Shown here in pieces: positions 6,867-46,581 of a DNA stretch of 64,000 nucleotides. Origin of the DNA: a virus; the IMG/VR virus record IMGVR_UViG_3300044846_004348, positions 1 through 64,000 of that record. One strand, 5' to 3'. The notes beneath the pieces are model-generated. The model saw nothing but the letters and a program-made list of their open reading frames with translations. It made no database searches and had not been told where the DNA came from. Each line of letters starts with the position of its first letter. Position 1 is the stretch's first letter. Position numbers and translations under genes: made by a program.

Positions 6867-7913
6867 ATGGCCACTCAGGACTATGCGGCTAGCGTTCAAG
6901 GTGTGTCGATCCGAGTCACTAGACTGGACGCCGCTGGAAACTTGCTCAACGGAGCAGGAGACAGCTACACAACTTCGGCGTTCCTCCGCACATCATTCAC
7001 CCCAGAGTACGAAGAGGGTGACGAAATTGTAGAGAAGTCAGCAGACGGCACAGTATGTGTATCATACAAAGCCCCTGACACACTCAAAAGAATAACAATG
7101 GAATTGGCTATTTGTGAGCCAGATCCAGAACTAACTGCACTTATTTCTGGCGGTTTGTTGCTTCGTAGAAACGAAGGAACATTCAGCTCCCCAGATAATA
7201 AATCCGTTGGTTGGGCAGCACCTTCAGTTGGAGATGATCCAACAGGAAATGGTGTTGCATTAGAATGCTGGTCATTTGCTGTTAAAGATGGTCGCCGTGC
7301 TTCTGAACAACCATACTTTCACTGGATTTTCCCATACGCAAAACTTCGCCAAAGCGGAGATCGCGTAATCGAAAATGGAATGCTTGCAACCACATTTGAA
7401 GGTTACGGACTTGGAAACGTTCTATTCGGAGCTGGACTAGATGGCCGTTGGGAATACCCAATTGCTTCAGAACGCTCATACGCTTATGCTCGCTCATACT
7501 GGGCGCCACAGGGACTAAAAGGTTTCTACACATGGCACCCTAATTTAGCAGCAAATGTTAACAACAAATCTTTAACAAGCAACATTGCTACATTGACAAC
7601 TTCAGCTGCTCATGGTTTTGAAGTTGGTCAAAGTGTGACCGTTGCTGGTGTTGATTCAACATTTAACGGTACTTACACAATTACTGCTGTTCCAACTACT
7701 ACAACATTCCGTTATGCAAAGACTGCAACAAATGTTGAGTCTACTGCTGTATCTCCAGTAGGAACTGCTGTACGTAATGCTGGTTATGTTGCTGTGACAG
7801 ATTTTGCTTCACAGACTTCAACAACAAGTTTCAACGTCCCAGGTAGCGAAGAATATAATGCCGATCTACCAATCGACTTTATTATTGCTTCAACCGAGGA
7901 TCCAACTTCGTAA
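6867..7913 (+). CDS. Major tail tube protein with one C-terminal beta-repeat domain
   Basis: 348 residues with an AAGGAGAAC site. Residues 1-225 look like an actinophage major tail protein (FLRTSFTPEYEEGDEIVEKS, ISGGLLLRRN, YFHWIFPYAKLRQSGDRVIE, GMLATTFEGYGLGN). Residues about 230-295 are a single copy of a beta-rich repeat (AAHGFEVGQSVTVAGVD, FNGTYTITAVPTTTTFRY). The same repeat recurs in the distal tail, tail tip and leftward adhesin genes. On a tail tube such a domain would sit on the outer surface. The gene lies upstream of the connector genes rather than directly before the chaperones, which seems an uncommon order. A strong terminator follows. Confidence 0.8.
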   Translation: MATQDYAASVQGVSIRVTRLDAAGNLLNGAGDSYTTSAFLRTSFTPEYEEGDEIVEKSADGTVCVSYKAPDTLKRITMELAICEPDPELTALISGGLLLRRNEGTFSSPDNKSVGWAAPSVGDDPTGNGVALECWSFAVKDGRRASEQPYFHWIFPYAKLRQSGDRVIENGMLATTFEGYGLGNVLFGAGLDGRWEYPIASERSYAYARSYWAPQGLKGFYTWHPNLAANVNNKSLTSNIATLTTSAAHGFEVGQSVTVAGVDSTFNGTYTITAVPTTTTFRYAKTATNVESTAVSPVGTAVRNAGYVAVTDFASQTSTTSFNVPGSEEYNADLPIDFIIASTEDPTS

Positions 7914-10896: not shown

Positions 10897-13800
10897 ATGG
10901 CAGTAGTAGGTAGTGCAAGTGTTGTCGTTAACGTCATCACCTCTGGGGTAGACAAGCAACTATCAGGTGCTTTTAGTGGCGGAGATAGAATCGGTAGAGA
11001 CGCTGGTAAGAAAGCTTCTGCTGGTTTTTCTAAAGGTTTTGCTGGTGGTGGCGGTGGAAGAAGACTTTTCTCTGATCAATTTTTTAAAGAAGCAGACAGA
11101 GCAAGAAAAACATTTCAAAGATTACTAAGAGTAGGTTATGCTTTAACTCCAGCTTTAGCAGCATTGGCTGGTATTTTAGGTAATGCCGCTGGAGCTTTGT
11201 TTTTACTTGCAACTGCGGCAGGTACTGCTGCTCCAGCACTTATTGTTTTGCCAGCTTCTCTTTTTGCCATAGCTCAGGCTGCAGTTGTAGCAAAAGTTGC
11301 TTTAATGGGCGTAGGTAAGGCTATTCAGGCAGGACTTAAGCCTTTAAAAAGTGGTGCCGCAGAAAATAAGGCTCTAGAAAATGCTCTTGAAAGATTAGAA
11401 GAAGCACGTATAAGACTTGCTCGTGCTGAAGAAGATAGAGCCGAAATTATTGCTGATGCAAATAAAAAAATTGTAGATGCTGAAGAAGATTATATTGATT
11501 CACAATATGAGTCAGAAAAAGCTGCTAAAGCTCTTTCTAAGGCTAGAGAAGAAGCTACAGAAGATTTACAACAACTTAGATTTGAAACTGAAGATGCTGC
11601 AATTTCTGAACAAAAAGCAAGACTTGAATTTGAGCGTTCTCGTGAATCGTTACAGCGTGTTCAAGATCTTCCACCTAACTCTCGTGCTAGACGTGAAGCA
11701 GAACTTGCATTTGCTGAAGCAGATTTAAATTTAAGAAGGTCTATTGATAAAAATTCTGATTTAAAGAAGGCAGAAGCAGAGGCTACTGCTGCTGGTGTTG
11801 ATGGATCAGAAAAAGTATTAGATGCTTCAGAAGCCTTAGCTGAGGCTAAAGAAAGAGAGCAAAAGGCATATGAAGCTGTTGGTGAAGCAGCATTGGATGC
11901 TGCTAGGGCTCAAAGAGATGCAAATAGGGCTGTAGCAGATGCAGAAAGAGCACTTGCAGAAGCAAAAGAAGATGTTGCTGACGCTGCTAAAGGCGCTAAA
12001 GATTCTGTAGATCAATTTGCTGAGGCAATGAAAAGATTGTCTCCCGAAGCTCAAGATTTTGTTAGATATATGTTATCTCTTAAAGATTCTTTCCAAGAAC
12101 TTAGAGCTGCTGCTGGTAGAGAATTTTTTCCTAAGTTAACACTTGCTATAGATAATTTAGTTACAAACTTACTTCCTAAATTAAATCCTCTTTTTGAAAG
12201 AACTGGCTCTATTCTTGGTGACGTAGCAATGGATATATCTAACGTTGTTACATCTACAGAAAACATTGGCAGACTTGAGAGAATTTGGTCTACAAACGAT
12301 CAGTTAATTGGTAATTTCGGAAGATCTGTTGGAAATCTTTATGAAGTTCTTTTAATTTTACTAGATGCCGCTGAACCTCTTATTAGGGAGTTTGGTGAGT
12401 GGATTGAGACTATTACTGAAGGTTGGCAACAAACTTTAAATGCTGAAGGTGCTTTCGATAGACTTAGAGGTTCTTTTGAAAGAGCAGGGGAAGTAGCAAA
12501 ACTTTTAGGTGAAATACTTGGTAATATTTTTACTGGAGTTCTTAATTTAGGTAAGGCTGCTAATTCTGGTGGTGCTTTAGATCTTTTCTTAACAAGAATG
12601 AGAGATGCAACTGAAAGTTTTGAAAACTTTACTGGAAGTGAAGCAGGAAGAAAGAAAGCTGAAGAATACTTTTTAACTACCGCAGAGAATGCTTTAACTT
12701 TAGGAAGAATTGTTGGAAAGTTACTTAAACCTTTTGGGGAAATAGGTGCAAGTCAAGATTTTGGTAATTTTCTTGGATCTTTAGAAAGAGCTGTTGAAAC
12801 TCTCACTGGCACATTGGATGACTTACTTGCTGATGGAATTTTAACATCGTTTGGTCTTTTTATTGAAGAATTTGCTACAACCATTGCTGGTTTTACAGTA
12901 GGTGGGGGTATTACAGTATTTTTTGATACTTTAACAGGGATTCTTGAAGTTATAAATAATATTATAACTTCCGATGCAGGTAAAGCATTTATAACAACAT
13001 TTGCTCCTATACTAGCTTTTTTTAGTGCTTTAGGTTTTGCTGGCGGCATTGCAAAGTTTTTTGGTAAAGTTATTGTTGGAACTTTAGGTTCAGCCTTTGG
13101 TGTACTGACTGGAATTTTTGGTGCTTTCTCTACAGCATTCAGATTCCTTATGACTTTTTTTAGAAATCCAGCAATTATTGTTAGGTTTATATCAATAGCT
13201 ATAGCTCCCTTAGCAAGTGCTGTTGGTTTAGCAGTTGGTCCATTTTTGTTAATAGTAGGGGCAATTGCTTTATTAGTAGGAGTACTTGTTGGTGCTTATC
13301 AGGCAAGTGAAGATTTTAGAACTGCTGTCTCTGAACTTTTTGCAGTTGTTAAAGAGTCAATTGTTGGTGCTTTAGATCAGGTAAAAGCTTCCTTTGAAGA
13401 TGCTTTTGGACCGATAGATGATATTAAAACTAAAATTATGGATGGCTTTAAAGTAATTGGAGACTTTATAGCAACATATGTAATTCCAATTTTTAAAGTA
13501 ATTATTCCTGCTGCCATAGGTTACTTAGGTGGAATAATTTCTGGATTGATCTATGTTGTAAAAGCTGTTTGGGACTATTTTACATTTGCATTTAATATGA
13601 TAAAAGGAATATTTAAACTATTTACTGGGGATACCGAAGGGGCTGTAGCAGCTTTTAAAAAGGCTTGGGAAGGTTTAAAAAGTTTCTTTAAAAATATAGT
13701 TAAAGCAATATATGCTCCTTTTGCTGGATTAGTTAACGGAATAATTAGAGGAATAAATTCAATAATTAGAGCTAAAAACAAACTTACTGATAACCAGACT

Positions 13801-14100
13801 TCCGAGTTAAGTCTTCTACCTACGGTATTAGATTTCGCTGAGGGTGGAACCGTATACCCAAGATCTGGTGGAGTTATTGCAAGAGTTGCAGAAGCTGGCA
13901 GACCAGAAAGAATTGAACCTTTAGATCCTAATGGTTTATCTGAAAGAGATAAAGCAATAGTAAAAATGTTTGCTGGTGGTAGTGGTGCTGGTACTGGTCC
14001 GACTATAAATGTGTACCCATCTCAGGGGATGGATGAGAGACAACTTGCTGAAATAGTTTCAAGAAAACTTGCTTTTCAGATGCGTAAAGGCGGAATTTAA
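10897..14100 (+). CDS. Tape measure protein
   Basis: 1067 residues; GGAGGTGATG site before ATG. The N-terminus is basic and Gly-rich. Hydrophobic segments lie at about 80-150 (LTPALAALAGILGNAAGALF) and about 690-800. A long charged coiled-coil region spans about 165-380. A C-terminal segment after 970 is typical of tape measure ends (FAEGGTVYPRSGGVIARVAEAG). At roughly 0.15 nm per residue the tail would be about 160 nm long, which is inference from length. No lytic transglycosylase or peptidase motif was seen. The stop overlaps the next start (TAATG). Confidence 0.92.
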   Translation: MAVVGSASVVVNVITSGVDKQLSGAFSGGDRIGRDAGKKASAGFSKGFAGGGGGRRLFSDQFFKEADRARKTFQRLLRVGYALTPALAALAGILGNAAGALFLLATAAGTAAPALIVLPASLFAIAQAAVVAKVALMGVGKAIQAGLKPLKSGAAENKALENALERLEEARIRLARAEEDRAEIIADANKKIVDAEEDYIDSQYESEKAAKALSKAREEATEDLQQLRFETEDAAISEQKARLEFERSRESLQRVQDLPPNSRARREAELAFAEADLNLRRSIDKNSDLKKAEAEATAAGVDGSEKVLDASEALAEAKEREQKAYEAVGEAALDAARAQRDANRAVADAERALAEAKEDVADAAKGAKDSVDQFAEAMKRLSPEAQDFVRYMLSLKDSFQELRAAAGREFFPKLTLAIDNLVTNLLPKLNPLFERTGSILGDVAMDISNVVTSTENIGRLERIWSTNDQLIGNFGRSVGNLYEVLLILLDAAEPLIREFGEWIETITEGWQQTLNAEGAFDRLRGSFERAGEVAKLLGEILGNIFTGVLNLGKAANSGGALDLFLTRMRDATESFENFTGSEAGRKKAEEYFLTTAENALTLGRIVGKLLKPFGEIGASQDFGNFLGSLERAVETLTGTLDDLLADGILTSFGLFIEEFATTIAGFTVGGGITVFFDTLTGILEVINNIITSDAGKAFITTFAPILAFFSALGFAGGIAKFFGKVIVGTLGSAFGVLTGIFGAFSTAFRFLMTFFRNPAIIVRFISIAIAPLASAVGLAVGPFLLIVGAIALLVGVLVGAYQASEDFRTAVSELFAVVKESIVGALDQVKASFEDAFGPIDDIKTKIMDGFKVIGDFIATYVIPIFKVIIPAAIGYLGGIISGLIYVVKAVWDYFTFAFNMIKGIFKLFTGDTEGAVAAFKKAWEGLKSFFKNIVKAIYAPFAGLVNGIIRGINSIIRAKNKLTDNQTSELSLLPTVLDFAEGGTVYPRSGGVIARVAEAGRPERIEPLDPNGLSERDKAIVKMFAGGSGAGTGPTINVYPSQGMDERQLAEIVSRKLAFQMRKGGI

Positions 14101-16466
14101 TGACATTACTTAATCAAGGTAAAGAATTTGAATTAGTAAACAAAAGTTTAACTCCTGTTGAAGAACCTATTAAAACTGGTCTTAAACTCCCTGGAGATAT
14201 AGTTTTAGGTAGTTTTGTTTTTAACACTGTCGATGAGTATGACGTTATTTGGGTTGTGACTGATATTGGTGGTTGGTGGAATCCACCAGAAGCAGAGATG
14301 CCAGACATAACTAGAGGTTACGGTGATGGCTCTTACGATTTTCAAGGAAGGTATGTAGCAAGAGAGTTAACTTTAGAAGGTGTATTTTTAACCAAAGACC
14401 CTTCACTAGTTGAAGCTGCTAGGGATCGACTTATCGAGGCAACTAATCTTGTTTACAAAGGTGCTTGGTTAATTACTGGTACTGATCCAAAAAGAGCTTC
14501 TTTTGTTCGTCTTTCTGGTCAAGTAGAAATTGAAACAACTAATGCGAGAGGTAGAACTGAGTTTTCTATTGGTCTTCGTGCTGCTGATCCTATTAAATAT
14601 GAGTGGAATGATTCCGAACCAGATGGTTATACGGTTATAGAGATACCTGCTAAAAACTTTATTAATGGAGATTCTGGCGTACAGACTATTACAAATATAG
14701 GTAATTATGATGTGCCTGTTTATTTGGAAGTAGTCGGTCCAGTTACATCTCCAGCAACTATTTTTAATAGAACTAGAGAAGAACTTGTATTAATGGTTTC
14801 TGGTATTAGAGGAAGACTTGGTTCTGTAATTGATAATAAAGAGCTTACTTTAGTTGAGTCTAGTTTAAAAGATGTGGCCACTCTTACTACACGTACAGCT
14901 CATAATTTTCAAGTAGGAGATGAAATTTTAGTTGAGGGAGTTGATAATATATTTGATGGACTATATATAATATCTTCTGTCCCTAGTGCAACAACATTTA
15001 CATATGAAATTGAAAATATCTCTAGTACATTACCAATTGTTCAAAAAAGTTTATTTAACAATATTGCCACTATCGAAACATCTGAAAATCATTCTTTTGA
15101 AGTAAACGATTCTATTTTTATATCTGGAGTGGATTCTGTATTTAATGGTACTAGCAGGATAACTGCAAAAACACTAAACACATTTTCTTTTGCAAAAACT
15201 AGAAATACTTCTACCTCTATAACTGGTGCAAGTATTATCTCAAATCAAGCAAATATTATTACTTTAGACCCCCACGAATTTATTCTCGGTGAAACTGTAA
15301 CTATTTCTGGTCTAGGGGGTAACTATAACGGCTCTTACATTATAACTTCTATTCCATCTTCTACAACATTTACTTATGCCGTAACTAGAACTAATGCTAG
15401 AAGTATTTTGAATAGGGTTTTAACTTCAAATGTTGCAACAATAACTTTAGACAATAATCATAATTTTCTTAGTGGAGAAAGTGTGCTTATTTCTGGAATA
15501 AATGATGCCTTTGATGGTGTTTATCAAATATCTTCTATTCCAACAACTACTACTTTTACATACAACCGTGAGAGATCTACTTCAAAAACAGTTACGGTTA
15601 AATCTAGAAATTCAAATACATCCATAATAACAACTGGTAGCGCCCACGGTTTATCTGCTACCGAGCAAGTTACTATCTCGGATGTAGAAGGCTTTAATGG
15701 AACATTTACTGTAACTTCAATTTTAAGTTCTAATAGTTTTAGTTTTGCCCAAACTGGCTCTAATCTAAACCCGACTGCAGTTTCTAATGGAAAACTAGTT
15801 GTAAATAAAAGACTAGTTTCTAAAAGAAAAAGACAAGGAAATGTTGCAACTATTACTACAGCAACCTCTCACGGGTTATTTGTAGGTGAAACTGTTAATA
15901 TTGAAGGAGTAGAAGCTAGTTATAACGGTGCAGGTAAAACTGTTACTGCTATACCTACAAGTAATTCTTTTACCTATTCTTCTACTGGTTCAGATGAAGC
16001 AGAACTTAACTCTGGAGGGTTAGTATCACTACTAGGAAACTACGCGGTATTACCAAGTAGCGCCTCGGTTGTGGGATTTGCCACAGTTTCTGGAAGTCTG
16101 CCTTTTACTTCAGTCCCTGGAACTGCAGTAGTTAATAATTATGTAGGCACCCCTATCTCTGGTGGAGTGACTCCACTAGTTACTGGCGGTAGGGCAACTA
16201 AAAAGAATGAAGTTCCTTTTACCCCTGGAGTTTCTATCTCTACAACAGCTACTGCAACTTATGGTCCAGATTTGTTAGAAATAGATACTCTTAACAGAGA
16301 TGTATTTTTAAACGGAGAAGTTGAAGGGGCTAGGGCAAAAATAGATATTCTTGCTGATTTTATAAAACTATCCCCTGGTGAAAATATTATTGAGTTTGAA
16401 GATTCTGGTAATCCAAATAGCGACGCGCTGTTAAAAATTTACTATAGATCTGGATGGTTAGGTTAG
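14100..16466 (+). CDS. Distal tail (Dit-like) minor tail protein carrying six inserted beta repeats
   Basis: 788 residues. Residues 1-190 match the Dit pattern (GGWWNPPEAEMPDITRGYGD, GRYVARELTLEGVF, ASFVRLSGQVEIETTNARGR, FSIGLRAADPIKYEW). The C-terminal 70 residues (LLEIDTLNRDVFLNGEVEGA and ENIIEFEDSGNPNSDALLKI) match the end of Dit-type proteins. Between them, about residues 255-640 hold six copies of a roughly 65-residue beta repeat of the form HxFxxGExVxISGVxxxYNGxYxITSIPSxTTFTY. Dit forms the hub between tail tube and tip. The repeats interrupt it and probably project outward. The first repeat follows a second beta segment (VPVYLEVVGPVTSPATIFN). Confidence 0.8.
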   Translation: MTLLNQGKEFELVNKSLTPVEEPIKTGLKLPGDIVLGSFVFNTVDEYDVIWVVTDIGGWWNPPEAEMPDITRGYGDGSYDFQGRYVARELTLEGVFLTKDPSLVEAARDRLIEATNLVYKGAWLITGTDPKRASFVRLSGQVEIETTNARGRTEFSIGLRAADPIKYEWNDSEPDGYTVIEIPAKNFINGDSGVQTITNIGNYDVPVYLEVVGPVTSPATIFNRTREELVLMVSGIRGRLGSVIDNKELTLVESSLKDVATLTTRTAHNFQVGDEILVEGVDNIFDGLYIISSVPSATTFTYEIENISSTLPIVQKSLFNNIATIETSENHSFEVNDSIFISGVDSVFNGTSRITAKTLNTFSFAKTRNTSTSITGASIISNQANIITLDPHEFILGETVTISGLGGNYNGSYIITSIPSSTTFTYAVTRTNARSILNRVLTSNVATITLDNNHNFLSGESVLISGINDAFDGVYQISSIPTTTTFTYNRERSTSKTVTVKSRNSNTSIITTGSAHGLSATEQVTISDVEGFNGTFTVTSILSSNSFSFAQTGSNLNPTAVSNGKLVVNKRLVSKRKRQGNVATITTATSHGLFVGETVNIEGVEASYNGAGKTVTAIPTSNSFTYSSTGSDEAELNSGGLVSLLGNYAVLPSSASVVGFATVSGSLPFTSVPGTAVVNNYVGTPISGGVTPLVTGGRATKKNEVPFTPGVSISTTATATYGPDLLEIDTLNRDVFLNGEVEGARAKIDILADFIKLSPGENIIEFEDSGNPNSDALLKIYYRSGWLG
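14865..16020 (+). repeat. Six tandem copies of a beta-rich protein repeat within the Dit gene
   Basis: The copies are marked by IFDGLYIISSVPSATTFTY, VFNGTSRITAKTLNTFSF, NYNGSYIITSIPSSTTFTY, AFDGVYQISSIPTTTTFTY, GFNGTFTVTSILSSNSFSF and SYNGAGKTVTAIPTSNSFTY, about 55-70 residues apart. They are protein-level repeats; the DNA copies have diverged. Confidence 0.8.
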
Positions 16467-16514: not shown

Positions 16515-18539
16515 ATGGCTATAGAAGAAAGCATTGAATATAGATTCTTTCTTACGGATCTTTTAAGTAATGAAATTATCTCTGAAGTACCTTTTAAAGA
16601 TGTAAGTTTTAGTAGACAAATTCGTCGTGCTGGCGAGTTTTCAGGAAAAATTTCATTTATACCTCAGACTAGCGGTTTAAATCTTTACGAATCGACAATG
16701 CCAGGCAGAACTGGGCTATATGTAATGAGGAATGGAGTTTGTGTTTGGGGCGGAATTATATGGTCTAGATCTTATGATGTTTTGTCAAAAGAGTTAGATG
16801 TTTCTGCTGCAGAATTTATTAGTTATTTCTATCACAGGCATGTTTGGCAAACTTTAGTTTATGGTTCTAAATTTATTGGTATAGCTTCATACTCAATCAC
16901 TTCTGGTGTTGCAACTGTTGTGACAGAAGAACCTCACGGATTTGAGACTGGTGATAAAGTTGCAATTACTTTTACTAGTCCTTTAGTAGACGGTGTTAGG
17001 ACTATATCTTCAGTAAATTCGGCTAATCAATTCACTTTTAATGTGGCTTCTGCAAACGTACTATCTACGTCAATAAATAGTGGTGCAGTTAGAGGCTTAG
17101 TAGATACTTTTGATTTTGTTAGAGACATACTAAATTTAACTGCTACAGATCTTTCAGGTATAAACTTTGCAAATGAAGAGATAGAGCCTTCTCAAACTTT
17201 TGAAGTCGCTATTATCTCAAAACAAAGATTTAATAATTTAGTTACTTTAGTTACCTCTTCTGCACATAATTTAGTTATTGGTCAAGAAGTGTTAGTTTAT
17301 GAAGTTGACACTGCATTAAATGGTTCTCATGTCGTTACTAGTACCCCAGACGATACTACTTTTACATACGATTTACCTGGACCAAACATTACTAAAAGCA
17401 CTCTTCCTGGGTTAAAAACAATAAACATATCTACAAAAACTCTTACTGCTTCTCCTAGTGCAACTACTATAGATAGTCCAGCAACAGCCACAATTGTCCT
17501 CGCTGAGCCTCATGGAGCTGGGACAGGTCAAAGAGTTTTACTTCAAGGTGTTGATTCATTTTTTGTAGATAGACTCGATAAAAGATATGACGGATTTTTT
17601 GAGATTATAAATGTTCCTAATTCTACAACTTTTGAATACACCACTACAGGTATTTTAAGTGAGACTACCGCCTCAGTTATAGGTGGTACTGCAACTTTTG
17701 GTAGCAAAATAGTTTATGGTTCTTATGGAAGTTTTTCTTATAATGCAGACATCGATATAAGAGTATCTAATGAAACTAGCGGTCTGTTTCAGGAACAAAA
17801 AATTTATAGAGGTTATGAGTTAAAAACTATTGGTGAAATATTAGAAGAGTACTCAGAAAATATAAACGGTTTTGAGTATAGAATTGATTGTGACTACGAT
17901 TACGATACAGCTTCATTTACTAGAACATTTGTGTTGTTAGATTTATCTGGTCCTCCTGAATTAGAGGAGGGTGGTTTGCCAGATATATCAAGGTTTGGTG
18001 CAAATCAATTTGTTTTTGAATATCCAGGAAACATCTCAAAATTTACTGTTGAAGAGTCAGCAGAAAACGCTGCTACCAGAATGTTTACTATGGGTAAAAT
18101 TGACGATATATCTGGTGACTCAAGTCAACCTTACTCTGCTGACTCGGCTACTCAGCTACTAAACAATTTAAATGGTAGAAGTTGGCCACTACTTGATCAA
18201 GCAGAATCTGTAGATGGGGTATCAAGTGAGCAAGAACTCTATTCTTACGCTAAAGACTATCTTTATGAGTCACTACCACCAATTAGTGAGTTTTCATTGT
18301 CTGTAAATGGGTCTTTATCTCCTATTGTTGGTAGCTATAAACCAGGTGATTTTTGTTCAATAATAGTTAATGACGAGTTTGTTCGTGAAAGGTTGGCTAG
18401 TGATTCTGAGCCAAGAAGCGACATCATCATTAGAAAAATTGTTAGTTATTCTGTAACTGTGCCTGATAGTCCTCACTACCCAGAGGATGTTTCATTAGAA
18501 CTTATTACTGATTGGAAGGTAGAAGATAGTGGCAACTAG
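16515..18539 (+). CDS. Tail tip / tail-associated protein (ReqiPepy6 Gp37-like) with beta repeats
   Basis: 674 residues; AAAGG site before ATG. The N-terminus (VSFSRQIRRAGEFSGKISFI, GLYVMRNGVCVWGGIIWSRS, KELDVSAAEFISYFYHRHVW) and the segment RIDCDYDYDTASFTRTFVLL match the Gp37-like tail proteins that follow Dit in actinophages. Three copies of the beta repeat seen in Dit interrupt it at about residues 120-195, 235-295 and 310-400. The C-terminus returns to a tail-hub fold (SLSVNGSLSPIVGSYKPGD, IIRKIVSYSVTVPD). It probably closes the tail tube and carries the fibres. Confidence 0.72.
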   Translation: MAIEESIEYRFFLTDLLSNEIISEVPFKDVSFSRQIRRAGEFSGKISFIPQTSGLNLYESTMPGRTGLYVMRNGVCVWGGIIWSRSYDVLSKELDVSAAEFISYFYHRHVWQTLVYGSKFIGIASYSITSGVATVVTEEPHGFETGDKVAITFTSPLVDGVRTISSVNSANQFTFNVASANVLSTSINSGAVRGLVDTFDFVRDILNLTATDLSGINFANEEIEPSQTFEVAIISKQRFNNLVTLVTSSAHNLVIGQEVLVYEVDTALNGSHVVTSTPDDTTFTYDLPGPNITKSTLPGLKTINISTKTLTASPSATTIDSPATATIVLAEPHGAGTGQRVLLQGVDSFFVDRLDKRYDGFFEIINVPNSTTFEYTTTGILSETTASVIGGTATFGSKIVYGSYGSFSYNADIDIRVSNETSGLFQEQKIYRGYELKTIGEILEEYSENINGFEYRIDCDYDYDTASFTRTFVLLDLSGPPELEEGGLPDISRFGANQFVFEYPGNISKFTVEESAENAATRMFTMGKIDDISGDSSQPYSADSATQLLNNLNGRSWPLLDQAESVDGVSSEQELYSYAKDYLYESLPPISEFSLSVNGSLSPIVGSYKPGDFCSIIVNDEFVRERLASDSEPRSDIIIRKIVSYSVTVPDSPHYPEDVSLELITDWKVEDSGN

Positions 18540-29133: not shown

Positions 29134-29430
29134 GTGGGCAGCCTAAGAAAACCTTCAGAATACGAACGCCCTCTCTGCGCTGAAATAGGTGGAGATCTAT
29201 TTTTTAGCGACGATGTCGACACTAGAAGTACAGATAGTTTAAGAAGATTTAGAATGGCTAAAAAAATTTGTAATAGTTGTGAGCATATCGAAGAGTGCGC
29301 TAGGTGGGGTTTAGAAAATGAAGTTTATGGGATATGGGGTGGGACATCTCCCACTGATAGAAGAGAAACTAGACATAAAAGAAACATAAAACCCCCTGTA
29401 GAAACCCTCTATAACTTAAATATCATATAA
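29134..29430 (+). CDS. WhiB-like iron-sulfur transcription factor
   Basis: 98 residues; GTG start with an AAAGAAAGAAG site. Cys15, Cys46, Cys49 and Cys55 (LCAEIGG, then ICNSCEHIEEC) are the four ligands of a 4Fe-4S cluster, followed by the WhiB turn GIWGG (66-70) and a basic stretch (RRETRHKRN). WhiB proteins occur in Actinobacteria and their phages and bind the sigma factor region 4 and DNA. This is the best single indicator of an actinobacterial host. It may repress or redirect host transcription. Confidence 0.88.
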   Translation: MGSLRKPSEYERPLCAEIGGDLFFSDDVDTRSTDSLRRFRMAKKICNSCEHIEECARWGLENEVYGIWGGTSPTDRRETRHKRNIKPPVETLYNLNII

Positions 29431-30189: not shown

Positions 30190-30711
30190 ATGTGGAAACC
30201 TGCTAACAATCTTGAGTGGCAAAGGGATGCGCTGTGCGCAAAACCAAAAAATCGTAACTACATAAATTGGTTTTTTTCTAACAATACTTCCGAAAAATAC
30301 GGGGCAAAGAATATATGTTTTTCTTGCCCTGTAAGAAAAGAATGTCTTCAGTGGGGTTTAGAGCATCGTCAAATCTGGGGTATTTGGGGCGGTAAAGATG
30401 AAGTTGAGATACGAAGGGCTTTATCAGTTTCATATAAAGGTGAAGAGACTAGAAGAAGACGCTACCCAAACTGCCCATACTGTACTGCAAGACCCTCTAA
30501 ATTAAGAACCTCAACCGAGCAGTTGCCTAATGGTGGTAGATGGACAACAGCAAAGGTTGTGACTTGTGACGAGTGTGGTTTTTCTTGGAGAAGTAGAACT
30601 AGTGCAAATGCTGTTGAGGCATACAAAATAGACAGACAAGACAAAATAACTAAAAGATTAAAAGAAAAAGAAAAGTTATCTAAGAAGAAGAGGGGTCGGA
30701 AGAAGAAATAG
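30190..30711 (+). CDS. WhiB-like protein fused to a zinc ribbon and basic tail
   Basis: 173 residues. Residues 10-75 are a WhiB domain with Cys16, Cys43, Cys46 and Cys52 and GIWGG at 64-68. Residues 90-135 add a second cysteine module (CPYC at 95-98, CDECG at 126-130) spaced like a zinc ribbon. The C-terminus is strongly basic and ends KKKRGRKKK, similar to an AT-hook. Typical WhiB proteins are around 80-130 residues and lack the ribbon. The gene converges with the glycosyltransferase gene on the other strand and overlaps it by 32 bases. The role is inferred as a DNA-binding transcription regulator. Confidence 0.82.
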   Translation: MWKPANNLEWQRDALCAKPKNRNYINWFFSNNTSEKYGAKNICFSCPVRKECLQWGLEHRQIWGIWGGKDEVEIRRALSVSYKGEETRRRRYPNCPYCTARPSKLRTSTEQLPNGGRWTTAKVVTCDECGFSWRSRTSANAVEAYKIDRQDKITKRLKEKEKLSKKKRGRKKK

Positions 30712-37989: not shown

Positions 37990-40900
37990 CTACGCCTGAG
38001 CTTCAGCCCACGACAATTTCGCTGATGTCAGTGTTTCTGAGCCAGTTAAACGTGCTACAGCAATTGTTATAATATCTGGACCATCTGGGAATACGCTGTT
38101 TCCACCTAAAATAGAGTTAGATAGTTCAAACAAATCACCGATGTCTACAGTAGTTCCTAATTCTTGACCATTTGCACCACTTGCACGGAAATTATAAACT
38201 TGAATACCACCAGAAATTGTGTCATTTGATGTGTGCTCAATTGTTTGAACTAGAGAAGGGGACTCTACTCCTACGAAATTTAAGTTATTTAGACGACCGT
38301 TGAGTAGTACTTTAACATCAATTAATTGATTAGTCTGTACACCAATTTCATTTAGACGAAGTTGCATTCTATTTATAATATCTCTATCACCTAATTGACC
38401 AGTTAATCCTTCGGAAACAGACGGACTTAAGCGAAGAGAAATTAGTGGCTGGTAGTTACCTCCAGAAGTGTTATTTAAACTTCCAGCAGGTGTAAATGAG
38501 TATGTTGATAAAGTATTACCTTGGTTGAAGAAGTTGACAACATTTTTTGAAACTAATGTTCCACCAGGAGGAGTTGCAGATCCTACATCTCTTCTATCAA
38601 CGAAAGCGTCGTAAGTAAATTGATTAGCAGCAGGTACAGTTGCAATTGTGTAGGATCCGTTAAATGAAGCAGCAAAAGCATCGGTGCTCATATTTACAAA
38701 TACACTATCCCCAACGTTGTATCCATGATTAGCACTCGTTGTTATTGTAACTCTGAAAGAGTTCTTTACTCTAGTAGTTACTGTAAATGTGGTTGCTTGT
38801 AAGTCGGCTAGTCTGTAATAAAGAATTATGTTATTAGTGTTTAGTGGTCTTATAAAATATGTTGCTTCGTTTTGAAGATTGTTAAAAGCATTTATTCCTG
38901 CAACTGTTTGTATAGCTGGGTTTTGGCTATTAGGTTGAAGGGAGCCAGAACCACTTATACCTTTAAATTGTAGTGGATCTCCTAAAGCAAAACCGTGTGA
39001 AGGTATGTTTATAATTTCGGTTTGAGTGTTAATTGCACTAGAACCAAAAGTTTTTGCGGTAGTTCCACCAATATTTAAAGAGGCACTAGATTTAGTGAAC
39101 AAATAGGCTCTATCATCATCAAATGTTCCATCCATCATTACCGAAGTTCCCCAGTGGAATAGGTATGGAATGTAGGTAGGGTTTTCAAATGTTACTACTT
39201 CGTATCGAGCAGGTAAGTTACCTGAGCGGAAGTATGATTCAAATTTTTGGTTGTTGTGAACAAACTCATGGACATAGCGAACTTGACCGTCTACTGTCTT
39301 AAATCCATAACGAATCTTACCTGCACCGTACCAAGAGTAATCCATATAAATCATTTGAATTTTAGATAGATCTAGGTTGTATCCAGTAATACCAGTGCCA
39401 TCGCAAGGATCTATTGACCATTGTGATTGAGGAACTCTTGTGTCTTCGGTAAGTGTTGCAATGATACCTGTTTTAGCGGAAACAAAAGAGTGTACAGTTC
39501 CCGATCCAACATCAGATAAGGTTACAAATTGCTCGGCAGTTGGACTTGCTTTTAACTTTAATGTGTTATTAGTTAGTACACTAATGTAGTAAGTTCTTCC
39601 ATTAATTAACCCGCCTATAGGGGTTCCATCAATTGAATTGTAAATTACTGGAAGGTTTTCAGTGTATCCATGATTTAATATAGTAATAACATTAGTTGAG
39701 GTATTTACTGCTGTACTTGGATTAAATTCTGTTTCATTACCAGAAGAACCTTTGTATTCAGGTTTAATAGAAATACGACTATCACTAGTTATTTCAGAAA
39801 CTTTATATGATTGACCTCTAAGAACAATGCTGTCTCCTACAGTTAGTTGAGCTTGGAACGCTGTATTTGTTCCAAAAATAAACTCTGATCCTTGTAAAGC
39901 AGCTATAGTTCCAGATATTTGTTGTGTTGAAGATCTACGCACACAGTAAAGTTCTTGTCCATCGAACTCAAAGAACATTCCGTTTTGATCATCGAACATT
40001 CCAGCGCGAAGGGCGCCATTTGTCCAAGCAGTAACGTGCATTCTTGGATATCCGTATGATCTGTTTTCTGTAATATTTACATTAGATATGTAGGTAAAGT
40101 TAAATGCGTCAATTACAGTAACTTGGAAAGTTCCGTTATAAATTTGACTTAACACATTTTGGGAATCAAAGGCATCATCAATTTTTACAAATAGACCGTT
40201 AATTAGTCCGTGAGGTCTTCTGGTCCTAACTGTGATAACGGAAGATGACCCTACTCTTCTCATATCTTCAACATCTATTGATGGTTTAAAGTTGATACCT
40301 GCAGATGTTTGAATACCTTTACCCGATTGATAACGGAAATATTTACGGGTTTGACGAATTATCTTTCCGTACCAGGTGCCGTATCCTGTAGACATTTCTA
40401 CTCCACCATCAAATGGACGATGTAGTGAGTATCCTTGAGGACGAACATATATGAATGTTGGGTACGAGTAACTTACATTTGTGTAGGCAGTGCTGTAAGG
40501 TCTGTCTACTGTAATTTGATCGTCTCCACCTATAGCAGCGATAGTTCTAATAATTGGTGTAGATGGTGTTATTTTAGATAGTTTTAAAGCAAAGCCAGTT
40601 CCCGCTGAAGAAATATCTACAGCGTTTGTATCGGCTGTTGCATCGGCTAGCGTGTTATAAAGTTTTACACTATTACTACTTAGTGGCGTTAGTGTTCCAG
40701 TTACTCCTGCTCCAGCTATATTACCCCCTGTAACTGTTGCAATAGCTTGTATTCTATTTGCAGCTGGCACATGAACTACAGTAAATGTACCGTTAAACAC
40801 TTCTGGATTTACACCAGTTATAGATGAGATAGTAAATCTATTACCAGCACGTAAGTTATGGTTTATTGATGTTGTGTAGTCTAGTATATTATCTGTTCTA

Positions 40901-43900
40901 TTTCTATTGTTTACTGTAAAAGTAGTTGAGTTGGGTATAGATCTTACAAAGTAGTAGTATCCGTCAATTAAAGGACTTGGTGATACCCCAGCAACACCTG
41001 ATGTTTGAGCAACACCAGTTGTCTGCACTTCATTAGTAAGAGTCGATCCTAATGAATTTGCACCTGTATATGTAAACTGAAAAGTATCTGGGGTTCCAGT
41101 AATTGTGTATGTTCCATTAAACTCAACAGCAGTTGTAGAACTTAGTCCACTAATAGTTACAATGTTACCAATTGTGTAACCATGGGCTTCTCTAGTTCTA
41201 ATTGTTCTACTAGTACCTGAACCAGAAATTTGGAAAATTTCTCTTCTAGGTCCACCAGTGCCTGGACTGAAAACAACTGAATCTTCTGTACTAAATTGGT
41301 GAGAGGCTAGAGTTATAACTTCTGTAGAAGTGTTTACATCTGAGGCAGCAAAAAATGCAGGTTGTTCTGTGTCTGGAGGGAATATTCTTAGTCTATCTCC
41401 CACTTTTAGAATTTTACTAAAGTTTGTTCCATCTCCATCTACTAGTACGGAGTTGACTGTAGTGTTTAGGGTTCCCGTTCCTGTAATATTTCCATTAATT
41501 TGAGAACTAGTTAAAGTGTGGGATAGACCTGCTCCAAAACTTGTAATGGAGATAGGAACACCTGATTGTGAGTTTGCTACAGTACTAGCCAGTCTTAACC
41601 AGTCTTTAGAAACTGCTATTACGTAATAATCATCACCGTCTGTTAGCCCGCCAATTGGTGTTTCTCCGCCGTCAGAGTATGTAACTTTTGTTCCAGTTAA
41701 AAATCCGTGTGAAGGTATTTTTATATAATTTTCTGATACGTCTACATTGAATCTTGGACTAAATGTTTTAACAATCTCTGGTACAGATCCTGAAGCAGTT
41801 ACTTCAAATTCGGTTGCACTAGTTACATCGCTAATTGAGTATGTACCATCTGGTGTTCTAATTAATGATTTTAATTTATGTCTACCGACTGGTGCTGGGG
41901 ATGCAATTAAATCTATTGCAGTTCCATTTGATGCATTAATACTACTTGTTGCTAGTTTTATTGTGTTTCCGTCTATTACAATTACATAATATGGAGTTGC
42001 ACTTACCAAACCATTTATATCAGTTTGACCTACCGTGTCATATTCTACTAGCTCACCTGTAGAAAAACCATGATTTGGGATTGTTAAAGTGTTTTCAACA
42101 AAATCTACAACGAATGTAGTTACCGAATGAGACCCTATACCTACTCCAATAATATTTTCTACTAAAGTAAGATTTTTGTCGTTGTACAGTCTAAGTGTGT
42201 TAGCATCTATTCTCTGTATAAAGTAAATTTTTTGATTTTGTAGTCCAAAAATATTTGTATTAGTGTCTATTTCTCCAACAACACCAGTAGCACCTACTTC
42301 TCTAAGTAGTGTGTTTCCAGTTGTTGCTGTTTGTATAGGTATAGTATTTAACGTAATTGTTGCACTAGCGTTGGCGGCTGGTACTTGATCTACAGTTAAA
42401 GCTCCAGAAACTGCTGCAGTAGTTACAGTTCCTGATGTTTGTGTAAAAAATTGAATTCTGTTAGCAGCAGGTATTGCCGTAATAGTGTGAGTTCCGTTGA
42501 ATATATTTGCATCTGCACCTGACATGCTGGATATAGTTACAGTATCGCCAACTTGTAAATTATGGGTTGTATTTAAGGTCACATCTGCTACGTTTACTGT
42601 TCTTAATCTATTAGTTACAGTAAATGTTGTAACGTTGGCTGCTTGAGGTCTGGTTACAGTGAATATTGTGCTTGAAGGAACGTTGTTAATTACAAATGTT
42701 CCATTAAATATGTTTGGATTATTTGCAGATATGCCAGAAATTGTTACTGTTGTTCCCACTTCAAGATGGTGAGGTAGGGTGGTTGTATATCTAGCCACCG
42801 TGTTTGAAATAAGTTCTCTATTGGATACAACTCTTGTGTATGTTGGAATGGTGTATCTTAGTTGATTTACACCAGCCATTGTTCCACCAACTACTTCATT
42901 TGATATGGTCCCACTAGTTGGTGTTGTAAAAGTTACTCTAGTGCTTGAAGGAATACTACTAATAACCCATTCGCCATTAAAGGTTTGAGGAACTGAACCT
43001 CCAATATTATTAATTCTTATTCTTTCACCCACTTCAAAACCGTGAGCTGCGCTTACAGTTACGTCAGCAACGTTTGCGCTTCTACTTCTTGCAGTAATAG
43101 TGAAAGCAGGTCTAGTCATGAGAGAAGCTCTTACAGTTGTTCCAGTAGTAGCACCGTTGGCAACAGTAATAGAAGTTGTACCTATATATGTAAATTGATT
43201 TGCAGAAGGGACACCATTTACTGTGAACTCTCCTATAAAACTGGAAGCATTTACTCCAGTCATATTTATAATTCTTATTCTGTCGCCAATAGCAAAGTAA
43301 TGAGGATTATCTGTGGTTATAGTTCTTGTAGTAGCTTCACTCTGTCTAGCAGTAATGTTTACTTGGTAATTCCAAAAATTACCATCGTTACCGCTGTTGT
43401 TTTCTAGGTATACGTAGTTATTAGTTTCTAAATTGTGTGGCGCTGCGGTGTTAACAACTAAGTTAGTGTTACTAAACAGTCTTCTAGTTGATAGTGTAGA
43501 TTTTTTTTCAGGACTATCAAACGTTATAACTGATGCAGAAGGAAGTGAAGTTACTCTATACTCTCCATTGAAAACATCTTGATTTGTATTAGTTATACCA
43601 GTTACAACAAATCTATCATTAACTTGAAGATCGTGGTTAGCATCAAAGTTTAAAGTTCCAACAGTTCTATTTGCTAGATTTCTGTTATTAATTCTTACAC
43701 CAATTTTTGAAGTTTTACCTATTGCTGTAGTTGTTGATAAAGTGTAGCTTGAAGGTGGCATCTGATATCTAAACTGAGTGGAGCTGCTTATAGTGTCTAC
43801 AATTGCATCTCTATAAACAAAACCAGCATTAGTTATGCCACCAGATCCAACATTTGTATTGCTAAAAGTAATATTTGGATCTAAGTTAGAACTTCCTACT

Positions 43901-46581
43901 GATTGAATTCTGTAGTCTTGATTTGCTGTATATGTAAATGTATTAGTTCCAGGTACAGAGGTTATAAAGTAGGTTCCATTAAAATATTCACCTATGTCTC
44001 CTTGAATACCTACAACACTTCCTGAAATATTTTTAACAACTACTGGAAAACCATTTGGTAGGTAGTGTGGCTCTGTTGTTACAATAGTTCTAGTAGTTCC
44101 TGAAGAAGATATACTTCTAATATTTGTTGTAAAAAGATGAGGTAGATAGTCTAAATCTGTTCTAGCTATAATATATGCTGCAACATCGGTATTAGTCTCT
44201 AAAGTTAAACTAAAACTTTCTTCAGCTGTATAAGTTATTTGGTTAGATGATGGTACACCAGTTACAACATATCTTCCATTAAATCTTGTGTTATTTGTGC
44301 CTGTGTTTCCTACAACTTGAAAATAGTTTCCAGTAGCTAAGTTATGGCTACTAGCAAGAGTGAGTGTTCTTGTTTGACCAGAACTTCCTCTTTGTGTTAT
44401 TAATATTTGAGGAGTGGCTATACCTGGTATTGAGAAGTTATCAAATGTTACTCTACTTCCGTTTTGTAAATTGTGAGGCTCTGTTGTTGTAATAAATCTA
44501 GAATTTCCGCTACTAGAAACGTTAGCTATAGTTAAGTCTCTACTCTTTTGATATCTTACTGTTTGTCCAGAAACATAACCGTGACTTGGTATGTAGATAC
44601 TGTCTTCTGAAATGTTTACAATATTCAAAATAAGACTGTGGTTTATTCCAGTGCCAGCAGCAGATAAGTCAATTACTGGACCCTGTAGCGATTGACTTAA
44701 TGTAAATCTATTTTCGTCTACCACTTCTTTTATATAATATGTAGAATTATTTTGTAAAGGTGTAATAGCTGTTCCAGTACCGACTGAATATCTTACTGGC
44801 TGATCCAGTAAAAATCCGTGATTACTTATAGTAATAATATTTAGAGCTGTATTAACAGTAACGTCTCTAAAACCCTCTACTGCATTGATACTAGATGGAC
44901 CAGTAATATTTAAAGTAGTAAAATTAGGATCTGGAGTGCTACTTAATCTATAACTAAAATCATCTACTAAATTTATATAGTAAACCGTGTTTTGTGCTAA
45001 ACCTATAGGAGCTGTACCGTTAGTGAAATAGTTTACAGCTTCCCCGTTAAAGAACCCGTGTGCAGTTTTTTGACTAATTATTTCTGTGTCTAAATCTATA
45101 GTTATTGGTACTAATGCGTGGAAAGAACTTCCAGCAGGGGCAATAGGAATTGCGTTTTCTTCATTGTTTGCATCTTCTGCAGTTGGGTGAAGTGTAAATC
45201 CAAACAAAGATCTTTCTACAAGAGTTACAGAAACTTCTCCTTCAACATCTCCTGTATTGTAAAGATTTAAGTTTTCAATTGGTTGACCTAGTAAAGTTGC
45301 AGATCCATCATATAAACCAGTAGATGTTGCAACATTTGTTGCTGTAGCAAATATGAATGAGCCACCACCACCACCAGTTAAACTTCCAATGCGATCGGTA
45401 GTTGCTCCACCACTGTAACCACCTGCTCCACCATTACCGCCCCAAGATTCGCCGTCTGAACCTGCTCCGCCGCCGAAACCACCTATTGCTGATGAGCCAC
45501 CAGCAGAAAAACCACCTACAAGACCATTGTTAAAGCCGCCGCCGCCGCCGCCTCGCTCAGAGTTTCCGCCTGCAGAGAAGAAACCTCCTCCACCACCACC
45601 AGCAGAACGTCCTGCTGCACCTTGACCGCCTTGACCACCAGTGTAACCTTGTTGCGATGTACCACCGATAGTTGTTAATACAGCATTAAAACCAAATTGT
45701 GTGTTAGATGAGGATGCTCCACCGCCAGCAACAAACAAAGGAATATTTCCAGCTTTTCTTACAACAAATGTTCCACCAGAAGATGCTGGCCATGTAATAT
45801 TATTAGGAGGTAGTTCTCCTCTTTGACCTATTGCAAAAGTAATAATTTCGCCTTTAATTAAGCGAACACGACCTCTTACAATTGCACCACCGCCACCAAG
45901 TGCTCTACCTTGACGACCAGGAGCACCTTTTACTGTAAATTCGTACAAACCATCTTCTGGAACTGTCCAGTCTTGGTATCCCTGAAAACTACCTAAATTT
46001 AAATATGTATTTTCCCAAGTTTCTGCAGCATAAGCTGATCTCATTTGTGCAAGATTTGGTCCTTGCCCTCCAGTAACCCCAGCGGATGTAAATGTGTGAT
46101 TATCAAATAGATATAAGGCAGAGCCACCAAGACCTGTTAAAAGATTTTTTACATAATATGTATTACCTGAAGTAAGACCTGTAATTGGGGTTGAGTCGGT
46201 AAGGTATTTTACTGCTTGAACATCATCGTATTTTACGTTAGTTATGTTTATAGAATTATCGTAAACAGATGGGAAGTTGAAAGTTACGGTTCCTGCTGAA
46301 TATTCAGTTAAATTTATATTAGTAGTAGAGGCTGCTGTAGTTGTAAAACCTATAGAAAAATTATCAGCAGTGTTTAGAAAATATACTTCACCACTGTCTA
46401 AACCATCTATAGTTCCTGTAGTTTCTCTTACTACCCAAGCGCTATCATTTACTAAATTTGTAGCTTTTGTGGTATTGATGTCTCTACCAGGAAAGTAAAT
46501 ATAATCTTCATCTAAGTTAACATTTACTTTTTGAAGAGTGTGTGTACCTGACCCACCTACAGCGGTAATATTAATAGTCAA
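37990..46581 (-). CDS. Giant multi-repeat virion protein / adhesin (2863 residues)
   Basis: This single open frame fills 8.6 kb. After an N-terminal domain comes WTVPEDGLYEFTVKGAPGRQ (about 210) and a glycine-rich domain (about 305-410, GGGGGGFFSAGGNSERGGGG) like those in fibre and ALK-type sequences. Most of the rest alternates two beta-rich repeats. One is the FNGTYxITxVPSxNxFTY type shared with the tail hub genes (about eleven copies). The other has the form SHGFxTGxxVxYxxGxxPIGGLxxGxxYYVI (about ten copies). A distinct module at about 2040-2110 contains LHRPFDGGVEMSTGYG and RQTRKYFRYQSGKGIQ, which I recall from structural proteins of T4-like marine phages. No signal peptide. It is probably a very long side or whisker fibre. 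Confidence 0.82.
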   Translation of the reverse strand: MTINITAVGGSGTHTLQKVNVNLDEDYIYFPGRDINTTKATNLVNDSAWVVRETTGTIDGLDSGEVYFLNTADNFSIGFTTTAASTTNINLTEYSAGTVTFNFPSVYDNSINITNVKYDDVQAVKYLTDSTPITGLTSGNTYYVKNLLTGLGGSALYLFDNHTFTSAGVTGGQGPNLAQMRSAYAAETWENTYLNLGSFQGYQDWTVPEDGLYEFTVKGAPGRQGRALGGGGAIVRGRVRLIKGEIITFAIGQRGELPPNNITWPASSGGTFVVRKAGNIPLFVAGGGASSSNTQFGFNAVLTTIGGTSQQGYTGGQGGQGAAGRSAGGGGGGFFSAGGNSERGGGGGGFNNGLVGGFSAGGSSAIGGFGGGAGSDGESWGGNGGAGGYSGGATTDRIGSLTGGGGGSFIFATATNVATSTGLYDGSATLLGQPIENLNLYNTGDVEGEVSVTLVERSLFGFTLHPTAEDANNEENAIPIAPAGSSFHALVPITIDLDTEIISQKTAHGFFNGEAVNYFTNGTAPIGLAQNTVYYINLVDDFSYRLSSTPDPNFTTLNITGPSSINAVEGFRDVTVNTALNIITISNHGFLLDQPVRYSVGTGTAITPLQNNSTYYIKEVVDENRFTLSQSLQGPVIDLSAAGTGINHSLILNIVNISEDSIYIPSHGYVSGQTVRYQKSRDLTIANVSSSGNSRFITTTEPHNLQNGSRVTFDNFSIPGIATPQILITQRGSSGQTRTLTLASSHNLATGNYFQVVGNTGTNNTRFNGRYVVTGVPSSNQITYTAEESFSLTLETNTDVAAYIIARTDLDYLPHLFTTNIRSISSSGTTRTIVTTEPHYLPNGFPVVVKNISGSVVGIQGDIGEYFNGTYFITSVPGTNTFTYTANQDYRIQSVGSSNLDPNITFSNTNVGSGGITNAGFVYRDAIVDTISSSTQFRYQMPPSSYTLSTTTAIGKTSKIGVRINNRNLANRTVGTLNFDANHDLQVNDRFVVTGITNTNQDVFNGEYRVTSLPSASVITFDSPEKKSTLSTRRLFSNTNLVVNTAAPHNLETNNYVYLENNSGNDGNFWNYQVNITARQSEATTRTITTDNPHYFAIGDRIRIINMTGVNASSFIGEFTVNGVPSANQFTYIGTTSITVANGATTGTTVRASLMTRPAFTITARSRSANVADVTVSAAHGFEVGERIRINNIGGSVPQTFNGEWVISSIPSSTRVTFTTPTSGTISNEVVGGTMAGVNQLRYTIPTYTRVVSNRELISNTVARYTTTLPHHLEVGTTVTISGISANNPNIFNGTFVINNVPSSTIFTVTRPQAANVTTFTVTNRLRTVNVADVTLNTTHNLQVGDTVTISSMSGADANIFNGTHTITAIPAANRIQFFTQTSGTVTTAAVSGALTVDQVPAANASATITLNTIPIQTATTGNTLLREVGATGVVGEIDTNTNIFGLQNQKIYFIQRIDANTLRLYNDKNLTLVENIIGVGIGSHSVTTFVVDFVENTLTIPNHGFSTGELVEYDTVGQTDINGLVSATPYYVIVIDGNTIKLATSSINASNGTAIDLIASPAPVGRHKLKSLIRTPDGTYSISDVTSATEFEVTASGSVPEIVKTFSPRFNVDVSENYIKIPSHGFLTGTKVTYSDGGETPIGGLTDGDDYYVIAVSKDWLRLASTVANSQSGVPISITSFGAGLSHTLTSSQINGNITGTGTLNTTVNSVLVDGDGTNFSKILKVGDRLRIFPPDTEQPAFFAASDVNTSTEVITLASHQFSTEDSVVFSPGTGGPRREIFQISGSGTSRTIRTREAHGYTIGNIVTISGLSSTTAVEFNGTYTITGTPDTFQFTYTGANSLGSTLTNEVQTTGVAQTSGVAGVSPSPLIDGYYYFVRSIPNSTTFTVNNRNRTDNILDYTTSINHNLRAGNRFTISSITGVNPEVFNGTFTVVHVPAANRIQAIATVTGGNIAGAGVTGTLTPLSSNSVKLYNTLADATADTNAVDISSAGTGFALKLSKITPSTPIIRTIAAIGGDDQITVDRPYSTAYTNVSYSYPTFIYVRPQGYSLHRPFDGGVEMSTGYGTWYGKIIRQTRKYFRYQSGKGIQTSAGINFKPSIDVEDMRRVGSSSVITVRTRRPHGLINGLFVKIDDAFDSQNVLSQIYNGTFQVTVIDAFNFTYISNVNITENRSYGYPRMHVTAWTNGALRAGMFDDQNGMFFEFDGQELYCVRRSSTQQISGTIAALQGSEFIFGTNTAFQAQLTVGDSIVLRGQSYKVSEITSDSRISIKPEYKGSSGNETEFNPSTAVNTSTNVITILNHGYTENLPVIYNSIDGTPIGGLINGRTYYISVLTNNTLKLKASPTAEQFVTLSDVGSGTVHSFVSAKTGIIATLTEDTRVPQSQWSIDPCDGTGITGYNLDLSKIQMIYMDYSWYGAGKIRYGFKTVDGQVRYVHEFVHNNQKFESYFRSGNLPARYEVVTFENPTYIPYLFHWGTSVMMDGTFDDDRAYLFTKSSASLNIGGTTAKTFGSSAINTQTEIINIPSHGFALGDPLQFKGISGSGSLQPNSQNPAIQTVAGINAFNNLQNEATYFIRPLNTNNIILYYRLADLQATTFTVTTRVKNSFRVTITTSANHGYNVGDSVFVNMSTDAFAASFNGSYTIATVPAANQFTYDAFVDRRDVGSATPPGGTLVSKNVVNFFNQGNTLSTYSFTPAGSLNNTSGGNYQPLISLRLSPSVSEGLTGQLGDRDIINRMQLRLNEIGVQTNQLIDVKVLLNGRLNNLNFVGVESPSLVQTIEHTSNDTISGGIQVYNFRASGANGQELGTTVDIGDLFELSNSILGGNSVFPDGPDIITIAVARLTGSETLTSAKLSWAEAQA
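38500..45150 (-). repeat. Extended array of two interleaved beta-repeat types in the giant gene
   Basis: Type A is marked by FNG followed by a VPS-like turn and FTY (for example RFNGRYVVTGVPSSNQITY, YFNGTYFITSVPGTNTFTY, IFNGTFVINNVPSSTIFTV, SFNGSYTIATVPAANQFTY). Type B is marked by a hydrophobic GL-loop and YYVI (for example INGLVSATPYYVIVIDGNTI, PIGGLTDGDDYYVIAVSKDW, PIGGLINGRTYYISVLTNNT). Copy numbers of about eleven and ten were counted by eye. Confidence 0.75.

Follow-up and report, generated by a model that had tools for sequence, protein, structure and literature searches.

Insertions into a galectin loop of the distal tail protein (Dit) bind hosts or aid adsorption in lactic phages (PMC7291167, PMC9437275, PMC10688798; these and the other papers cited here are drawn on through excerpts), and in a review such Dits are said to carry one or two added binding modules, with evolved Tals and module-bearing major tail proteins also being known (PMC7291167). 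In the evolved Dits of phage J-1, the skunaviruses and the S. thermophilus phages, the insert comprises one or two carbohydrate-binding modules, and it is about 250 amino acids (aa) long in the S. thermophilus phages and 168 and 319 aa long in the described skunaviruses. For mycobacteriophage Bxb1, the excerpted text of a preprint describes a Dit with three additional CTE-like domains (PMC13252515). Here we analysed one stretch of viral DNA ("the window"), the first 64 kb (64,000 nucleotides) of the 92,642-base IMG/VR virus record IMGVR_UViG_3300044846_004348, in which an open reading frame (ORF) of 788 aa (14100-16466, plus strand, ATG start, open throughout) encodes, by profile matches and modelling, a predicted Dit with intact belt and galectin domains and six inserted modules. 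Like the evolved Dits, this protein has an insertion in a galectin loop, keeps the belt and galectin core and has relatives without an insert; unlike them, it carries six beta-barrels of ~60 aa (seven in some relatives) and a further segment of ~80 aa, and its glycan binding is putative. Among the cases found in the literature excerpts, it is the evolved Dit with the highest module count. We consider it probable, taking the whole reading together, that it is an evolved Dit whose six-module arms would bind host-surface glycans.

An earlier interpretation made from the letters of the window (the sequence-only reading) had held that Dits usually have at most one or two added domains, which agrees with the review but is out of date because the Bxb1 Dit, as excerpted, has three. 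In the literature searched, which covered few subscription papers and was seen in excerpts, no six- or seven-module Dit was found, and we do not claim absence from print. Long Dits are not rare, because the BFVD matches listed, many of them uncharacterised or fibre proteins, include several tail, minor tail or Dit proteins, 437-1042 aa in length.

The position of the ORF is that of a Dit gene, directly behind the tape measure gene (10897-14100, 1067 aa; phrog_4197, E 9e-75) and before a Tal or hub gene, here the tail gene at 16515-18539 (a second minor tail protein by its match to phrog_1885; the label Tal-like is putative, the model having a predicted local distance difference test score (pLDDT) of 58.5), and the order of tape measure, Dit and next tail protein is the same in the annotated relatives DSL-LC01, Cece and Popper. 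On its N-terminal side the ORF matched the minor tail protein family phrog_5577 (residues 28-266, E 2e-17) and, below the cut-off, Pfam Sipho_tail (residues 76-152, E 0.01, 16.5 bits against 24.2), and at its C-terminal end Pfam SPP1_Dit (residues 724-786) above the cut-off (28.3 bits against 25). An AlphaFold2 monomer model of the protein, built on 33 sequences (mean pLDDT 88, predicted template modelling score (pTM) 0.52), aligned to the SPP1 Dit over 236/243 residues (Z 16.8, root-mean-square deviation 4.7 Å) in an alignment that spans residues 29-787 across the insert, to the DTP of mycobacteriophage Douge over 254/290 residues (Z 16.3), and to monocin, Douge, 80alpha and p2 chains with Z 13.9 to 16.7. 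By the SPP1 alignment the model contains both the N-terminal belt and the C-terminal galectin domain of an SPP1-type Dit; its belt domain (residues ~28-168) also aligned to ring-only Dit and tube proteins. The top Foldseek match was a tail-tip chain of Bxb1 (PDB 9d93, chains M; 670-671 residues, E 1.3e-12), which on our own reading of this match is probably the Bxb1 Dit; its core aligned up to chain residue 680 and it likewise bears additional domains (going by the excerpted description, three of them as against six small barrels in the window Dit).

These matches bear out the sequence-only reading in that both Dit ends of the protein are recognisable. It had named a C-terminal segment that is another repeat as the case that would overturn it, and this case fails: a further repeat at the C-terminal end is excluded by the SPP1_Dit match and by the fold alignment, the last ~65 residues completing the galectin domain, and because the alignment to the SPP1 Dit runs across the insert, we assign this end to the Dit and not to a seventh repeat. 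It is extremely improbable that the protein is a tail fibre with Dit-like ends. This view could draw on its length, well above the about 250-300 aa of classical Dits, and on the label "minor tail protein", the only annotation given to its relatives in named phages. The belt and galectin fold, the gene order and the orthologues with zero or one module, which occupy the same position and measure about 312-414 aa, all argue against a fibre. The parts of the ORF are as follows (residue numbers are those of the protein; all on the plus strand).

14100..16466 (+): Dit with internal module array, 788 aa (profile matches, model, fold alignment)
14181..14603 (+): Dit belt (N-terminal) domain, residues ~28-168 (alignment to SPP1 Dit)
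14631..14822 (+): first part of the galectin domain, residues ~178-241, insertion after it (alignment to the insertless orthologue L100; AlphaFold2 strands)
14856..15035 (+): module 1, residues ~253-312 (repeat profile)
15045..15230 (+): module 2, residues ~316-377 (repeat profile)
15228..15413 (+): module 3, residues ~377-438, best conserved by position (repeat profile; positional comparison)
15414..15599 (+): module 4, residues ~439-500 (repeat profile)
15600..15785 (+): module 5, residues ~501-562 (repeat profile; endosialidase/FCCH fold match of model residues 493-573)
15825..16013 (+): module 6, residues ~576-638 (repeat profile; Pfam End_beta_barrel E 2e-4, under cut-off)
16014..16259 (+): non-repeat "return" segment, residues ~639-720 (length comparison of six-/seven-module with one-module Dits)
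16260..16463 (+): C-terminal part of the galectin domain, residues ~721-788 (SPP1_Dit; alignment to L100 and one-module Dits)

The six modules (~60 aa each, residues ~253-638) were counted with a repeat profile to which one-module Dits of other phages contributed 39 distinct single modules and six- and seven-module arrays none; it found six domains at 37.7-56.4 bits, compared with 8.4 bits for the best of 1000 shuffles, and this count equals that of the sequence-only reading. Four orthologues (L100, L154, L158 and L159) have the same N- and C-terminal parts directly joined. In L100, the core of which is 58% identical to that of the window Dit, the strand ending at window residue ~241 is followed by a short turn and then by the strand from window residue ~725, so the array replaces one galectin loop, and the same loop carries one module in L009, L012 and DSL-LC01. 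Comparison with Dits lacking the repeats, which had been suggested as a way to locate the insertion point, thus placed it with L100 and the three other insertless orthologues; the proposal that the repeats split a Dit holds as regards a true insertion but not as regards its site, which lies inside the C-terminal galectin domain, in one loop, and not between two Dit halves. Across the survey described below, the insert sits at the galectin loop in 79/83 Dits, and loop insertion together with insertless relatives, by which evolved Dits are recognised, was found here as well.

Repeat 6 of the window Dit is followed by a segment of ~80 aa (residues ~639-720) that was absent from the earlier description; it had no match to the repeat profile and none in Pfam at E<=1. 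The segment after the array measures 68-84 aa in 34/34 six- and seven-module Dits and 3-10 aa in 43/43 one-module Dits, and because of this difference we regard it as belonging to the array. As a guess, it might be the stretch by which the chain returns to the galectin domain from the far end of the arm.

An artefact of assembly or of repeat collapse is unlikely, since a second IMG/VR contig (L033) agrees at 99.98% identity over 12,762 bp (2 mismatches, no gaps) and module 1 shares only 19-42% identity with modules 2-6.

By computation on the model, the modules share the fold of the endosialidase beta-barrel and of the E1 FCCH domain, both relationships being recovered by the fold searches: the module model matched the phi92 endosialidase beta-barrel (Z 10.6, 78 residues, 1.9 Å), endosialidase NF (Z 9.3) and the FCCH domain of Uba6 (Z 10.3), with 74-78 residues and 1.9-2.3 Å across the three. 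The fold is shared, but in phi92, K1F/endosialidase NF and E1 it is a single domain of a tailspike or enzyme and not a tandem array on a hub. Searched singly against Pfam, module 6 (E 2e-4) and module 5 (E 0.003) matched End_beta_barrel and modules 2 and 5 matched E1_FCCH (E 0.03-0.04), all under the curated cut-offs, and modules 1, 3 and 4 gave no match at E<=1; a protein of 2863 aa of the same phage, which carries the same module (see below), passes the E1_FCCH cut-off (36.7). Against the sequences of solved structures, a ten-module profile found no convincing match (best E 0.03, BsmI; E1 FCCH chain 2lzj, E 0.57) and the Dit alignment found none at E<=0.1. A function related to ubiquitin was considered and dropped, because only the small beta-barrel is shared with E1 enzymes; the Pfam scan of the Dit detected no other E1 domain.

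We scanned viral contigs with the window Dit (19/19 loci), with an alignment of Dits having one to seven modules, the window Dit first (the best 80 of 210), and with an N-terminal core, a query that favours no long arrays (the best 80 of 287). For the survey we took complete Dits, 83 distinct ones in all, from named phages and IMG/VR. We excluded those truncated at the end of a contig (L049, L055, L095, L107, L116, L120, L129, L134, L171), two that matched over no more than a short C-terminal stretch (L089, L093) and the distant Dit of Popper (L030, 59 bits). No module was present in 4 Dits, one in 43, six in 17 and seven in 17, and two (L014 and L029, each with an insert of ~80 aa under the module threshold) were counted as diverged and grouped with the one-module rows in the trees. 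Among the matches listed, none of the 83 complete Dits examined had two to five modules. The one-module orthologues (43/83; DSL-LC01 and IMG/VR contigs) have the same core, insertion site and module and are without the return segment; the zero-module orthologues (4/83) have the same core and no insert. In the Dit of Cece the insert is diverged, and one clear module follows the galectin domain.

In many one-module Dits (L012, L059, L063, L066, L073 and others) an open frame of ~170-356 aa lies upstream of the belt domain; Dits of the L059 type have two more modules in this extension, the frame of the L066 Dit continues to 1698 aa, and in Cece the extension is inside the annotated Dit gene.

In the midpoint-rooted tree of 80 distinct cores (200 bootstrap trees), the 31 six- and seven-module rows formed one clade (100/98; in 100% of the bootstrap trees) whose sister group consisted of 11 rows with one module each, and the four zero-module rows formed a separate clade (99/98). 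Because the six- and seven-module Dits are monophyletic with a one-module sister group, the simplest history would be one expansion of a single module within one clade, after which the array stayed at six or seven, with one loss besides. The seventh module was gained or lost repeatedly, since well-supported branches force at least three label changes. Recent tandem duplication was ruled out, the modules inside the window array (normalised scores 0.20-0.43) being no more alike than each is to its best partner in other phages' arrays (0.31-0.62).

For modules 1-6 the best partner stood at the same position in 121, 130, 136, 87, 102 and 77 of 136 six-vs-six comparisons and in 189, 234, 284, 89, 104 and 96 of 289 six-vs-seven comparisons, where module 3 was often the best partner for modules 4-6; for modules 1-7 it did so in 108, 112, 136, 65, 52, 63 and 94 of 136 seven-vs-seven comparisons. 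Judged from these counts and from those of the window array (see below), positional identity is firm for modules 1-3, moderate for modules 5 and 6, and weak for module 4. The module region was less alike than the core in 151/153 pairs (mean identity 48.9% vs 64.1%), the pairs being drawn from 18 arrays that include near-copies (L006/L007, L042/L044/L045). Faster divergence is often seen in host-facing parts. In the close pair L039/L041, the one informative pair, the nonsynonymous rate (dN) of the modules was 0.021 and the synonymous rate (dS) 0.564 (dN/dS about 0.04), which suggests that the modules are under purifying selection. These data also bear on the improbable view that the modules bind nothing specifically and serve as neutral spacers or as generic decoration of the surface, like the immunoglobulin-like domains of many phages; it would suit the dispersal of the module over five of this phage's virion or putative virion proteins (see below), the clade that has none in its Dit and the poor positional identity of window modules 4-6, but it accords badly with the length of six or seven in 34/34 Dits of the clade, with no intermediate among the matches listed, and with the low dN/dS of the close pair.

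The module profile also found the module in other proteins of the window:

7566..7745 (+): one copy in the major tail protein (ORF 6867-7913; phrog_792)
16890-17069, 17220-17399 and 17475-17669 (+): three copies in the Tal-like next tail gene (ORF 16515-18539; phrog_1885)
37990..46581 (-): putative virion or fibre protein of 2863 aa with 11 clear copies and 1 partial copy

The 2863-aa protein also matches virion structural, baseplate wedge and tail fibre PHROGs, and its 826-aa neighbour (46644-49124; 831 aa from stop to stop) has one copy. We surveyed the neighbouring tail proteins of 59 distinct Dits and found the major tail protein for 43, in 42/43 of which it carries one module. The next tail protein has three modules beside 11/11 six-module and 6/7 seven-module Dits (the exception is L045, where the best-matching frame is only 102 aa long); beside one-module Dits it carries none to six modules, most often two (19/38). 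Around the module-rich protein lie five collagen-like proteins on the minus strand (34281-36221, 36460-37980, 49197-49847, 51009-52661 and 53403-57971), likely a set of fibres, and a 205-aa protein with a CBM_4_9 carbohydrate-binding domain (33662-34279, minus strand) stands beside this cluster.

The fibre cluster and the distribution of the module are relevant to a possible but less favoured explanation, in which the arms are a docking scaffold that holds tail fibres or the baseplate periphery without contacting the host. Module 3 keeps its place in all six-vs-six pairs, as expected for specific protein contacts; the "arm and hand" of the phage p2 Dit holds the receptor-binding protein (PMC7291167, excerpt); and the several collagen-like or putative fibre proteins on the minus strand, of which the 2863-aa one has the same module, need attachment. 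On the other side, the major tail protein, which occurs in each ring of the tube and at which fibres would not be expected to dock, has the module too, and the modules diverge faster than the Dit core.

We favour arms that bind host glycans over such a scaffold. Under this interpretation, six Dits would form the usual ring below the tail tube, from the galectin domains of which six arms with 36 modules in all would project, and the arms, the one-module major tail protein and the three-module next tail protein together would coat the tail with one kind of module. Each module might bind actinobacterial cell-surface glycans weakly and all of them together strongly; the tail would thereby stick, and its tip be held against the wall while dedicated receptor-binding proteins act. 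With ~0.15 nm of tail for each tape-measure residue and 4 nm for each ring, the tail can be estimated at ~160 nm and ~40 rings, hence at ~240 further modules on the tube. We infer weak glycan binding because of three precedents known from excerpts, i.e., the evolved Dits, the phage Douge, whose capsid, tail tube and baseplate bear surface domains that bind mycobacterial glycans (PMC13033339), and the K1F tailspike beta-barrel, a hotspot of host discrimination that bears one of the tailspike's three polysialic-acid sites (preprint PMC12632334). The likeness of the modules to the latter barrel with its sialic-acid site (PMC12632334) is one of fold only.

Several observations count against this interpretation. 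The fold alone is no proof of sugar binding, because the FCCH domain of E1 enzymes shares it and, to our knowledge, the eukaryotic domain is not known as a lectin. Because the Dit scores under the Pfam cut-offs (whole protein: E1_FCCH 28.4 bits against 29.5 and End_beta_barrel 17 against 35; best single module: End_beta_barrel 21.6 against 35), the modules can be said to fold like these families and not to be members of them. When the window array was compared with 13 others, positional orthology was patchy, the best partner of modules 1-6 standing at the same position in 10, 8, 12, 2, 9 and 6 cases, and a module 3 that is held in place would also fit docking. The shape of the arm is not fixed by the monomer model, given its pTM of 0.52. 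The length of the Dit alone is not new, because of the three domains of Bxb1 (as excerpted) and the long Dits in BFVD. A pattern scan for the host in one genome each for 84,980 species gave 51 fitting stretches, none of which encoded a relative.

A bolder variant, which we think unlikely though somewhat less so than neutral spacers, is a heterovalent lectin arm that jumped once from one to six modules, which then took on different tasks fixed by position, each present in six copies per ring, on an arm made rigid in its out-and-back course by the return segment. Its odds are lowered by the weak positional identity of window module 4 (2/13). If true, one structural ring protein would read a composite glycan pattern on the host surface. 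Independently of this variant, the window Dit would extend the idea of the evolved Dit, developed on dairy phages that have one or two modules, to phages that are uncultured, probably infect actinobacteria and have six or seven. Dits with none, one, six and seven modules on one core offer a natural series for asking what multiplied adhesion modules bring, and these phages may have a general adhesive coat, as suggested by the occurrence of one module type on the tail tube, the hub and a putative fibre protein.

The phage is probably siphovirus-like with a host in the Actinomycetota. The Dit matched 26 named phage records (Arthrobacter 17, Microbacterium 7, Glutamicibacter 1 and "Actinomycetia" 1), the host of the last being predicted (PMC10611076, excerpt). 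Cece, Zooman and Big4 are among the Microbacterium phages that match over most of the Dit query. Two WhiB-family genes are present on the plus strand (29164-29367 and 30217-30417, one of the genes being also given as 30190-30711). Such genes are typical of actinobacteria and their phages, so the two support an actinobacterial host. Rfam and tRNA scans of the window gave no match. A tryptophan halogenase gene lies at 32060-33610 on the minus strand (Pfam, E 2e-106), and a homologue of tryptophan 7-halogenase is described from the relative DSL-LC01 in the excerpted text (PMC10611076).

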